From NCBI RefSeq assembly GCF_030127105.1, contig NZ_CP126161.1, forward strand, positions 2,356,001-2,420,000: DNA of 64,000 nt, read 5' to 3'. The notes under the pieces were generated by a model that searched no databases, had not been told where the DNA came from, and was given only the letters and a program-made list of their open reading frames with translations. The position numbers and the translations under genes are program-made. This DNA comes from Haloarcula pelagica (GTDB lineage Archaea > Halobacteriota > Halobacteria > Halobacteriales > Haloarculaceae). Shown piece after piece: positions 13,465 through 38,998 of this stretch (within the stretch, counting starts at the first letter, position 1; each line of letters starts with the position of its first letter).

Positions 13465-15036
13465 ATGAGGGCATCACAGACACTCGCGCGCTCGACGCTG
13501 GACACGTTGCCGATGAACATTGCAGTGGTCGACAGGGACGGCACGATCCTGTTTACCAACCGGGCCTGGCGGGAGTTCGCCGGCGTCGAGGACGAGGAGA
13601 TCCGGGGAGTCAATTACTTCGAGACGACCGATGTCGAGGCCGACGAGTACGCCCAGGCCGCCGTCGACGGGATCAAGTCGGTCATCGCCGGGGAGAAAGA
13701 GCTGTTCACGCTGGAGTATCCGTGTCACACGCCCGACCAGCAGCAGTGGTTCCTGATGCGTGTGGCACCGCTCCCGCCGGAGGAGGCCGGAAGCGTCGTC
13801 ATCGCCCACATCGACATCACCCAGCGAAAGCTCGCGGAACTCGCGGCCGAGCGCCGGAGCGCCCAACTCGACGCACAGCGCCAGGACCTCGAACACTTGC
13901 TGTCGCGGATCGACGGACTCGTCCACTCGGTGCTCGACGACGTGATGTCGGCCGACTCCCGCGCGGAGGTCGAACGGACGATCTGTGATCGACTCGAAAC
14001 GGTCGACTCCTACCGGGTCGCCCGGATCGCGAGTTTCGACATCCGCCGGGAGACGCTCGAGCTCACGGCCGGGGACGATACGGCGGGGACGATCCCGCTC
14101 GACGCGGCCGACCCGGTCGCGACGGCCGCCCGGCGTCGGGAGATCCAGACGGTCACCGGGCAGTTCGAGGACACCCACGCGGCGATCGCTGGCCCGGAAT
14201 CGGGGTCGCTGGCCGCTGTCCCGCTGGCCTCCGGCGAATCGCTGTACGGCGTGTTGACGGTCTATGCCGACAGCTCGGACGTGTTCGATCCCCGCGAACG
14301 AGCGATCCTCGGCGTGATCGGACAGGCGGCGTCGAAGGCGATCGACGCCATCGAGACCAGCAGGATACTCACGGCCGACAACGTCACCGAACTCGAACTC
14401 CTGGTCACCGACGAGGAGACCTTCTTCGTCGCGGTCGCGACCGAACTGGACTGTCGGCTGGAGTACGGCGGGAGCGTCGCCGACCACGAGGAGACGGTCA
14501 TGTTTTTCACCGTCTCCACCGACGACCCGTCGGCGGTCTGTGCAGTGGCGGCCGACCATCCCGAGGTCACCGCCGTGACCCACGTCTCCTCCAGTGGGGA
14601 CACGTCGCTGTTCGAGTTCACCGTCGACGATCCGCCGGTCGTTTCGCTGCTCGCCGACCGCGGTGCCGAGACCCGGGATATCGTCGTCGAACCGGGACGG
14701 GCGGAAGTCACCGCGACGCTCTCGGCGGAGACGGAGACCCGTGCCGTCGTCGAACACGTCAGGGACCACTACGCCGAGACCGAACTGCTCTCGGTCCGGG
14801 AGCGCGACGAACCCCCGACGACCAGGGAAGCGTTTCTCACGTCCGTCGAGGACAACCTGACCAACCGGCAACTGACCGCACTCAGAAAGGGGTATCTGGG
14901 CGGGTTCTTCGAGTGGCCCCGGGATGTCGCCGGGGACGAACTCGCCGCGTCGATGGATATCACCCCCTCGACGTTCCACCAGCACCTCCGTGCGGGTGAG
15001 CGAAAGCTCCTCGCAGCGGTATTCGATGCCCGGTGA
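13465..15036 (+). CDS. Bat-type PAS-GAF-HTH regulator (bacterio-opsin activator family)
   Basis: A 523-residue sensor-regulator. A PAS domain (about 8-130) has LPMNIAVVDRDGTILFTNRA and a PAC-like end. A GAF domain follows (about 165-300), then the bacterio-opsin-activator GAF/HTH-associated region (about 310-450) and a C-terminal HTH_10 helix-turn-helix in which LTNRQLTALRKGYLGGFFEW leads into ITPSTFHQHLRAGERK. In Halobacterium salinarum, Bat senses oxygen/light and activates bop, crtB1, brp and blp. Here the gene lies directly upstream of crtB-crtY-brp, so control of retinal synthesis is a strong inference. The first ATG was chosen; an upstream in-frame TTG adds atypical residues. Confidence 0.82.
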   Translation: MRASQTLARSTLDTLPMNIAVVDRDGTILFTNRAWREFAGVEDEEIRGVNYFETTDVEADEYAQAAVDGIKSVIAGEKELFTLEYPCHTPDQQQWFLMRVAPLPPEEAGSVVIAHIDITQRKLAELAAERRSAQLDAQRQDLEHLLSRIDGLVHSVLDDVMSADSRAEVERTICDRLETVDSYRVARIASFDIRRETLELTAGDDTAGTIPLDAADPVATAARRREIQTVTGQFEDTHAAIAGPESGSLAAVPLASGESLYGVLTVYADSSDVFDPRERAILGVIGQAASKAIDAIETSRILTADNVTELELLVTDEETFFVAVATELDCRLEYGGSVADHEETVMFFTVSTDDPSAVCAVAADHPEVTAVTHVSSSGDTSLFEFTVDDPPVVSLLADRGAETRDIVVEPGRAEVTATLSAETETRAVVEHVRDHYAETELLSVRERDEPPTTREAFLTSVEDNLTNRQLTALRKGYLGGFFEWPRDVAGDELAASMDITPSTFHQHLRAGERKLLAAVFDAR

Positions 15037-15067: not shown

Positions 15068-15082
15068 CCAAAGTAGTTGGGT
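15068..15082. promoter_or_regulatory. Candidate Bat upstream activating sequence (UAS)
   Basis: CCAAAGTAGTTGGGT, read on the complementary strand as ACCCAACTACTTTGG, matches the Halobacterium Bat UAS consensus as I recall it (ACCcnactagTTnGG) at every defined base except one lower-case position. The site is nearly palindromic. It lies 6 bases before a TATA-like TTAAAG and between the Bat-like gene and crtB, the arrangement of known Bat targets. Confidence 0.6.
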
Positions 15083-15088
15083 ACACAG

Positions 15089-15095
15089 CTTAAAG
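15089..15095 (+). promoter_or_regulatory. TATA-like element of the crtB operon
   Basis: CTTAAAG follows the candidate UAS by 6 bases. It predicts transcription starting near 15118-15120 and a leader of about 180 bases before crtB. No convincing TATA element is seen nearer to crtB. Confidence 0.4.
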
Positions 15096-15298
15096 TCGCA
15101 GTGCCACTATTTGTCTGTAGATGACGTGTCATCTGGGTTCCAGCGGCCCGCGGCGTTTGGCTCTCCATCTCGGCGAGCGACAGCCCTCTCCGGGGCGAAC
15201 GGAGCGACCGCCGGGTGAAACCGTCCCGAACCCGCGAACGGGCCTGTCGACAATCGCGCCAGAGACACGACGTGCGTACTGACTGACACCGTAATTCA

Positions 15299-16289: not shown

Positions 16290-17015
16290 ATGACGGCTCT
16301 GCTCACCTATCTCCAGTTCCACGCGCTGTTCGTCGTCCCGGTGCTGGTGGGACTGGCAGTGACGACACCGTACCGGCTCGCCGGCCGCCGCACCGTCCTC
16401 ACGGCGACGGCGCTCCTCGCCGGCCTCGCGCTGGTGTACACGACGCCGTGGGACAACTACCTCATCGAACGCGGCGTCTGGTGGTACGGCGAGGGGACGG
16501 TCCTCGTCCGCGGGCGCTCCGCGCCCCTCGGCGAGTACCTCTTTTTCGTCTTCCAGCCGTTCCTGGTCGGCCTCTGGCTCGCTCGCTTCCGGATCGATAC
16601 GACGCCGTCGCTCCGGACGCCGGCCAGCGTCCGCGCGGTCGGTCTCGCAGCGGCGACCATCGTCGGTGCCGCGGGCCTCCTGCTCCTCGACCGACCCAGC
16701 GGACTGTATCTCGGGTCGCTGCTGGCCTGGGGGGCACCGATCCTCGCGATCCAGTGGACGTTCGGCTGGCAGTTCCTCGTCCGAGAGCGACGGACCGTCG
16801 CCGTCGGGACGCTGGTGCCGACGCTGTACCTCTGGCTGATCGACAGCGTGGCGCTTTCCCTGGACATCTGGTCGCTGTCGGACCGATACACCGTCGGCCT
16901 GGCGATTCCGCTCTTGAAGCTCCCGATCGAGGAAGCCGTCTTCTTCCTCCTCACGTCGCTGTTCGTCGTCCAGGGCATCGTCCTCTACGTCTGGGTGGTC
17001 GACAGATGGGCGTGA
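16290..17015 (+). CDS. crtY: Lycopene beta-cyclase (CrtYc/d-type membrane enzyme)
   Basis: A 241-residue membrane protein with about seven hydrophobic segments. It belongs to the archaeal/fungal CarR-like cyclase class, not the flavoprotein CrtY class. It carries family motifs such as YTTPWDNYLIERGVWWYGEG and the C-terminal LPIEEAVFFLLTSLFV, an internal-repeat motif seen in CrtYc and CrtYd. It cyclises the ends of lycopene to beta-carotene. The ATG after crtB was chosen because upstream in-frame codons overlap crtB and encode atypical residues. It overlaps brp by 10 bases. Confidence 0.9.
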   Translation: MTALLTYLQFHALFVVPVLVGLAVTTPYRLAGRRTVLTATALLAGLALVYTTPWDNYLIERGVWWYGEGTVLVRGRSAPLGEYLFFVFQPFLVGLWLARFRIDTTPSLRTPASVRAVGLAAATIVGAAGLLLLDRPSGLYLGSLLAWGAPILAIQWTFGWQFLVRERRTVAVGTLVPTLYLWLIDSVALSLDIWSLSDRYTVGLAIPLLKLPIEEAVFFLLTSLFVVQGIVLYVWVVDRWA

Positions 17016-18034
17016 GACAGCTCTCCCCGACCGGATCTGAGCGGCTCCGCAGTACAGGACTCGTTCCTTCGTGGGCTGTTATCCCCGTCGCCGTGGTGTT
17101 CTTGCTCGGCGTGTCGGTTCCGGCGTCGTTGCAGTACCTCCCACTGATCGTCAGCGTCGGCCTGCTGGGGCTGCCCCACGGTGCCGTCGACCACCTCGCC
17201 GTGGCGCGGGCACGCGGCCGGGAGCCGGACCGCCGGGCGATCGGCCGGGTCGTCGTCCTCTACGTCGTCGTCGGCGGTGCCTACGCAGTCGCGTGGTTCC
17301 TGGCGCCCGCGCTGTCGTTCGTCGTGTTCATCCTCGTCACCTGGTTCCACTGGGGCCAGGGCGACCTCTACGCGCTCGGAGGACTCGCCGGCGCCGACCA
17401 CCTCCGCTCGGTCCCGCAGCGACTTGCCACCGTCGTCGTCAGGGGCGGGCTCCCGATGCTGGTCCCGCTGCTCGCGTTCCCGGCGTGGTACCGCCGGGTC
17501 GCGACGGATCTCGTGGGCCTGTTCGCGCCGACCGCGGCGACGACGCTCCAGTGGGCGTTCCGGCCCGACGTGCGGGCCGGGCTGGCGGTCGGGTACGGCG
17601 TTCTCGCCGTCGGGACGCTCGCCGTCGGCTTCCACCGTGCCGACGACCGCCGGCCGTGGCTGCTCGACGCTGGCGAGACGGCGGGGCTGGTCGCGTACTT
17701 CGCCGTCGTTCCGCCGGTGCTGGCCATCGGGCTCTACTTCTGTCTGTGGCACTCGCTGCGCCACGTTGCGCGGCTGCTGGCGGTCGACGACGCCGCGGTC
17801 GCGGCGCTGGAGGCCGACGACATCGCGGGAGCGTTCGCCCGGTTCGCCCGCGACGCGGCGCCGCTGACGCTCGTCTCGCTCGTGTTACTGGGCGGCCTCT
17901 CTCTGGTCGTCCCGAACCGCCCCGGGACGGTCGCCGAGGCGGTCGCGCTGTACCTGGTCTTTATCGCCGTCGTCACGCTGCCCCACGTGGTCGTGGTGAC
18001 AGTGATGGATCGGGAGCAAAGCGTCTGGTCGTAA
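17006..18034 (+). CDS. brp: Beta-carotene 15,15'-dioxygenase, Brp/Blh family
   Basis: A 342-residue polytopic membrane protein that cleaves beta-carotene to two retinals. The histidines thought to bind iron sit in the family positions GLPHGAVDH, TWFHWGQGD, LWHSLRHVAR and TLPHVVVV. It begins inside the end of crtY and ends the carotenoid operon. Retinal is needed by rhodopsins, but no opsin gene is in this window. The 20 bases spanning its stop codon are repeated just downstream (18051-18070). Confidence 0.9.
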   Translation: MGVRQLSPTGSERLRSTGLVPSWAVIPVAVVFLLGVSVPASLQYLPLIVSVGLLGLPHGAVDHLAVARARGREPDRRAIGRVVVLYVVVGGAYAVAWFLAPALSFVVFILVTWFHWGQGDLYALGGLAGADHLRSVPQRLATVVVRGGLPMLVPLLAFPAWYRRVATDLVGLFAPTAATTLQWAFRPDVRAGLAVGYGVLAVGTLAVGFHRADDRRPWLLDAGETAGLVAYFAVVPPVLAIGLYFCLWHSLRHVARLLAVDDAAVAALEADDIAGAFARFARDAAPLTLVSLVLLGGLSLVVPNRPGTVAEAVALYLVFIAVVTLPHVVVVTVMDREQSVWS

Positions 18035-28591: not shown

Positions 28592-28607
28592 TCCGAGATA
28601 CTTTAGC

Positions 28608-38323: not shown

Positions 38324-38998
38324 GTGAAGTACGTTCGGCTCTCGCTGGCGATGGGCCCCGAGATCCGCCACCCGATGCACCAGTTCCTCGTCGAGACGGA
38401 GGGGTACGACGCCAGCTACATGCTGCGGGGCAACAGCGTCGGCGAGGAACTCCAGACGCTCCTCTTTCACGTCGACGGCTTCCCGCCCGACCCCTACCGG
38501 GCGGCTCTGGAGGCGACCGACATCGTCGTCGACTACGCCATCACGACGTGTCCGGACGAGACGTTCTACCTCTACGTCCAGGACCGCCCGAGCGAGACCG
38601 ACGCGGCGCTCGTCGAGGCGCTGACGCGGGCCCGCCTGGTCGTCGTCTCGCCGATCGCGTACCTGGCCGACGGCACCGTCGAACTGACGCTGGTCGGGCC
38701 GGGACAGGCCGTCCAGCGCGCCGTCGAGGCCGTCCCCGATTCGATCGACGTGGACGTACTGGAGGTCGGCACGTACGACAGCAGGCGGCTGGACACCGGG
38801 AGCACGCTCACCGACCGGCAGTTCGCGGCCGTCGCGGCCGCCGTCGAGACCGGCTACTACGACAATCCGCGGGGCGGTAGCGTCGCGGATGTCGCAGAGC
38901 GCATCGACTGTGCGCCCGGGACCGCGGCCGAACACCTCCGGAAGGCGGAGGCCCGCGTGATGGCCGGGCTCGTCGATTCGGACGCCGGGCCGGTGTGA
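38324..38998 (+). CDS. HTH-10 (bacterio-opsin activator-like) regulator
   Basis: A 224-residue regulator without a PAS domain. The N-terminal 150 residues match the bacterio-opsin activator-associated domain (VRLSLAMGPEIRHPMHQFLV; RLVVVSPIAYLADGTVELTL). The C-terminal HTH_10 domain reads LTDRQFAAVAAAVETGYYDN leading into CAPGTAAEHLRKAEARV. It starts with GTG, supported by TATA spacing. It is divergent from nuoCD, a plausible target, with a shared 82-base promoter region. Confidence 0.82.
   Translation: MKYVRLSLAMGPEIRHPMHQFLVETEGYDASYMLRGNSVGEELQTLLFHVDGFPPDPYRAALEATDIVVDYAITTCPDETFYLYVQDRPSETDAALVEALTRARLVVVSPIAYLADGTVELTLVGPGQAVQRAVEAVPDSIDVDVLEVGTYDSRRLDTGSTLTDRQFAAVAAAVETGYYDNPRGGSVADVAERIDCAPGTAAEHLRKAEARVMAGLVDSDAGPV

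Follow-up and report, generated by a model that had tools for sequence, protein, structure and literature searches.

The 64,000-nucleotide window analyzed here comes from the 4.46-Mb genome of Haloarcula pelagica, a member of the Haloarcula group, and contains a gene for a bat-like regulator (BatL) followed on the same strand by crtB, crtY and brp (Table 1). The bat-like gene ends 31 bp before a dyad element (UAS), and the sequence ACACAG (15083-15088) separates the UAS from a TATA-like element. The gap between crtB and crtY is 19 bp, and crtY and brp overlap by 10 bp, which argues that the three genes are probably carried on a single transcript.

Table 1. Features of the crtB locus (positions in the window) and candidate sites elsewhere in the genome (positions in the genome).
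Feature	Position	Strand	Basis
Bat-like regulator (BatL), 523 aa, PAS_4-GAF-BAT-HTH_10	13465..15036	+	Pfam; without receiver domain, without LOV signature
UAS dyad CCAAAGTAGTTGGGT, gene-direction reading	15068..15082	+	Sequence, matrix score, conservation in relatives
TATA-like element CTTAAA, 6 bp after the UAS	15089..15094	+	Sequence; YTTAWM in relatives, near-fixed spacing
Expected transcript start	15117..15121	+	Inferred from TATA distance and leaderless bop architecture
Expected crtB 5' leader, ~178 nt	15121..15298	+	crtB ATG conserved in relatives
crtB, phytoene synthase, 323 aa	15299..16270	+	SQS_PSY, E 2.5e-70
crtY, lycopene cyclase (CarR domain)	16290..17015	+	TIGR03462, E 7.9e-38
brp/blh, beta-carotene 15,15'-dioxygenase	17006..18034	+	TIGR03753, E 5.1e-76; PF15461, E 1.1e-85
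Bop-type UAS before the DUF7563 gene	G000:C1:1645329-1645343 (L006:1501-1515, L169)		Matrix
UAS-like site before the photolyase gene	G000:C1:386168-386193	-	L172, L215-L240

The original prediction had held that this 15-mer, read as its reverse complement, was nearly identical to the Halobacterium consensus, and that it lay 6 bases before a TATA-like element and downstream of a PAS-GAF-HTH_10 gene. The positions and the domain order were correct, and ACCCAACTACTTTGG, the reverse complement of CCAAAGTAGTTGGGT, indeed matches the consensus ACCcnactagTTnGG except for a single lower-case base. The choice of orientation, on the other hand, did not stand. We compared this consensus with sites taken from the genome sequence of H. 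salinarum DSM 3754 (bop, TACCATACTGATTGGGT / TACCATACTGATTGGGTCGTAGAGTTA; brp, TACCCCACTAGCTTGGGTCTTTTTT; crtB1, CACCCAAACTGATGGGGTGTCGGTTTGAG), and these align with the window site when it is read in the direction of the gene, the TATA box lying downstream, a reading that is also kept in relatives. Because the element is a dyad, it looks like the consensus in both readings; the reverse complement has fewer mismatches with the consensus as given in the prediction, yet it is the gene-direction reading that is conserved with respect to the TATA box. The presence of the element before crtB is confirmed, and the site looks functional. In the DSM 3754 assembly, bop itself seems to be broken close to the 5' end, where a contig boundary falls (L162, start of G001:C1), and the remainder of the bop cluster lies on another contig (L181).

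Taken without its context, the 15-mer pattern ACCNNNCTANTTNGG has three matches genome-wide, compared to four of its backwards control, and when two mismatches were allowed the counts in the window and in the genome were not above those of controls. The string alone, as common as its control, is of no significance. Addition of the TATA element at the given spacing left one exact match genome-wide, at the crtB locus, for a pattern that had been partly shaped after inspection of the crtB sites. We also scored the 64-kb window and selected loci outside it with a 30-column matrix built from 31 sites, 28 of them at bop promoters in other genomes and three in H. salinarum (effective number 15); every crtB site of the Haloarcula clade was excluded from the training. 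The crtB UAS scored 23.4 bits; the next best site on either strand of the window scored 8.0 bits, and the maxima in 12 Markov-random windows ranged from 6.7 to 12.9 bits. Frequent occurrence at random sites, named beforehand as a ground for refuting the prediction, applies to the bare 15-mer alone; the matrix score singles out the crtB site within the window, and the TATA spacing does so in the genome. A near-match at position 28605 of the window was dismissed as chance, since its conserved GG half carries two mismatches and it is absent from the top matrix scores, and a pair of sites on the C4 plasmid (126210 and 126238), which are tandem copies lacking the usual TATA context, was set aside.

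Fourteen of the 16 crtB loci of the Haloarcula clade (L032-L047) scored at least 14 bits, and the regulator gene adjoins crtB in 14 of these 16 loci. Nearly all Haloarcula relatives have the element, with its TATA spacing, ahead of crtB, in keeping with the original prediction. The two exceptions are L032, where BatL is retained but the dyad is without its left half, and L040, which has a one-base indel in the element and whose genome has no BatL match. L047, from a possibly incomplete MAG, has an intact element and no BatL match. About a dozen crtB loci of other genera reached at least 13 bits, including those of Haladaptatus (28.3 and 21.1), Haloquadratum (20.5) and several Halorientalis (13-20). 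Within the alignment, the mean share of the top base was 0.80 for the UAS columns, compared to 0.47 upstream and 0.60 downstream, making the UAS the best-conserved part of the promoter. The 6-bp spacing between UAS and TATA is common to the crtB promoters of relatives and nearly so to those of bop. In Halapricum sp. CBA1109 the crtB-linked bat gene is split over two frames (L286:5644-7256), by a frameshift or a sequencing error, and the crtB element still scores 14.6 bits.

Three rhodopsin genes are present in the genome. The bop product is closest in sequence to cruxrhodopsin-3 and to a second solved chain named bacteriorhodopsin, and its gene, located in the ATP-synthase cluster, carries a UAS (TACCAAACTGTTTGGGTA / TACCAAACTGTTTGGGTATATGTAACTTTG; 25.8 bits) approximately 42 bp before the ATG. 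No obvious UAS was seen within 250 bp upstream of the two remaining rhodopsin genes. Most of 29 other bop loci in the family have a site at ~42 bp, with degenerate centers in Haloarcula proper. Since the distance from the UAS GG to the bop ATG is ~42 bp in this genome and in relatives, applying it at crtB predicts a transcript start at about position 15120. Haloarchaeal transcripts are mostly leaderless, and a leader of the length expected for crtB is unusual. We rejected a structured or riboswitch-like leader, as folding was no better than that of shuffles (z-scores of +0.08 to -1.14) and revealed no unusual RNA structure. A 53-aa leaderless ORF starting at 15121, at the expected start, was likewise rejected, its frame and start codon not being conserved in relatives. 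The position of bop in other genera had raised the idea that the leader is a decayed bop 5' end, which was dropped since local alignment was no better than for shuffles.

A tree of the GAF-BAT-HTH region placed the window regulator and H. salinarum Bat in one clade with support of 97/97, together with other crtB-linked proteins, a Haloplanus protein and eight bop-linked proteins; no other paralog from the same genome that was included in the tree joined this clade. Forcing one such paralog, L111, together with H. salinarum Bat was marginally rejected (p-AU 0.048). The best BLAST match of the window regulator in the H. salinarum genome is Bat, and in the reverse search Bat preferred L111 (212 bits) over the window regulator (186 bits). 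Reciprocal best matches were for this reason abandoned as proof of orthology and the tree was used instead. The recognition helix reads PSTFHQHL in the window regulator and PSTYHQHL in H. salinarum Bat. One more HTH_10-type match, a weak one, is found in the window at 38426-38980 on the forward strand (E 5e-4 when compared with the bat-like protein). A UAS-like site of 16.5 bits (G000:C1:1589339-1589368; L213:7340) has L111, a Bat-like paralog, on one side and on the other a divergent operon that includes a large membrane-protein gene, possibly NrfD-like.

From the conserved element, two further genes are predicted to belong to the regulon, and both predictions are open to checking. A gene for a 49-aa DUF7563 zinc-ribbon protein (C1:1645409) has the UAS CACCAAACTAGTTGGGCACAC 65 nt before its ATG, at 22.2 bits, and this site was the top-scoring one of the whole 3-kb locus in all 26 genomes of the genus that were compared. 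These data point to the DUF7563 gene as a candidate new member of the Bat regulon. In H. salinarum, bop and crtB1 are controlled in part by Brz, a different small zinc-finger protein (PMC2253796); Brz and DUF7563 are likened here as small zinc proteins, with no homology between them implied. A UAS-like site scoring 16.5 bits precedes the ATG of the photolyase gene by 36 bp and ranked first in 15 of 26 genomes; the right half and the TATA element are conserved in relatives and the left half is variable. Photolyase would thus be a weaker candidate target of Bat than DUF7563.

Comparison supports the Bat/UAS reading of the original prediction: the element is found again at bop in this genome, its presence before crtB is conserved, and the neighboring regulator falls in the Bat clade. 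Counting against it are the preference of H. salinarum Bat for L111 in BLAST, the intact element without a BatL match in L047, the half-lost element beside a retained BatL in L032, and the unusual length of the expected crtB leader. The product of this neighbor quite probably binds the UAS and drives crtB-crtY-brp as one unit, coupled to bop. It would contact the dyad CC-N-AA-N4/5-TT-N-GG beside the TATA box via its C-terminal HTH_10 domain and, once bound, would help to recruit TBP/TFB, and the promoter would drive the three genes together. The supply of retinal would be coupled in this way to that of bacterio-opsin, as bop in this genome bears the element too, with identical spacing.

The UAS could also be genuine and be occupied by a different factor, either another HTH_10 paralog, such as L110 or L111 of the same genome, or a small zinc-finger protein of the Brz type. 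The regulator has 23 matches in its own genome, many with HTH_10, of which L111 is the best BLAST match of H. salinarum Bat; Brz, with its role at bop and crtB1, might act at the same UAS (PMC2253796), and L047 has the element without a BatL match. This possibility is nevertheless unlikely, because among the paralogs of this genome included in the tree the window regulator alone falls in the Bat clade and alone has the PST[FY]HQHL helix, and because its gene adjoins the element in most relatives. Still less probable is a role for the block as a constitutive part of the promoter (for example an extended TFB-recognition region) or as the bat terminator, with no specific activator involved. The block does abut the TATA box and follows the bat stop codon closely, but the dyad is also found at bop promoters elsewhere and at crtB genes with no adjacent bat, and the bop element of H. 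salinarum was defined as regulatory by mutagenesis (reviewed in PMC1447603). As to chance resemblance to a degenerate 15-mer, the pattern alone is no rarer than its control, but the independent matrix score, the near-fixed TATA spacing and the conservation in many species leave this explanation with almost no probability; conservation refutes it, unless that conservation has another cause.

The Bat/UAS reading, in which the neighboring regulator acts at the UAS, does not extend to the sensor part of the protein. The original prediction had spoken of the same circuit as in H. salinarum; by sequence comparison this holds for the DNA element and the DNA-binding module, and fails for the LOV-type PAS and the receiver-like domain of the H. 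salinarum regulator, both of which are absent here. In the alignment, the PAS domain of the window regulator lacked the LOV motif NxRFLQG and the N/N/Q flavin contacts. The motif and the flavin contacts are absent from the crtB-linked Bats of Haloarcula and Halapricum in general, whose PAS domain has almost no sequence ahead of it, and the motif is present in bop-linked Bats. The bop-linked Bats of other genera (L276-L281, L283, L284) contain a LOV domain in which the adduct Cys is usually kept (motifs such as NCRFLQG and NCNFMQG), and the Bats of H. salinarum and Haloplanus have His in its place. Several bop-linked Bats also carry a receiver domain (Response_reg, E 2e-13 in L277 and E 8e-5 in H. 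salinarum Bat). No Response_reg domain was found in the window regulator or in the L033 and L041 proteins, and only about five residues precede the PAS domain of the window regulator.

Since the LOV Cys is still present in L207/L284, the closest bop-linked relative by the tree, the LOV change is most simply placed on the branch to the Haloarcula/Halapricum clade. With the LOV domain and the receiver gone, the LOV-type light sensing of other Bats cannot be the input in this clade, and the likelier one would be redox state or oxygen, sensed by the PAS and GAF domains that remain. A direct light response of Bat has been suggested and not definitively established (PMC4682037). Judging from the other Bats compared, in which the PAS is of LOV type, this type of PAS may be the mark of a subgroup rather than of the Bat family. 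Bats with the LOV Cys, with Cys replaced by His and without LOV all apparently read one DNA element and form a natural comparison, so that an exchange of regulators among genera could test directly what the LOV domain does.

We consider the chances even that Haloarcula and Halapricum share a regulon in which the DNA element and the DNA-binding module were kept, the LOV domain gave way to a non-LOV PAS, crtB entered the former slot of bop, and DUF7563 and possibly photolyase became new members. A search of the open-access literature, with subscription papers mostly outside its scope, found no report of a LOV-less Bat or of this element in Haloarcula; such silence is weak evidence of novelty.

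Among the closest known systems is the H. salinarum Bat/UAS regulon of bop, brp and crtB1, which has the same dyad beside a TATA box and the same pathway of target genes, with a Bat of the same clade and the same GAF-BAT-HTH_10 architecture. The two differ in that a single bat / crtB-crtY-brp cluster is present here, with bop far off in the ATP-synthase cluster, in that a leader of ~178 nt is expected for crtB, and in that the window regulator is without the receiver-like domain and the LOV-type PAS. The altered sensor has a parallel in BAT-LOV*, the Cys-less LOV domain of a haloarchaeal Bat (PMC4682037), which belongs to the same family; BAT-LOV* still binds flavin (PMC4682037), in contrast to what is seen here, where the PAS is devoid of the motif and of the flavin contacts. 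The bat-bop-crtY-brp clusters of other genera of the family (L277, L278, L280, L281) have the same order of bat, UAS and then crtY-brp in one direction, with Bats that, unlike the window regulator, contain LOV domains with the adduct-forming Cys. In these clusters bop stands behind the UAS, whereas here it is crtB; by comparison of gene order, crtB in Haloarcula is in the slot that bop holds in other genera, which would fit the long leader expected for crtB.
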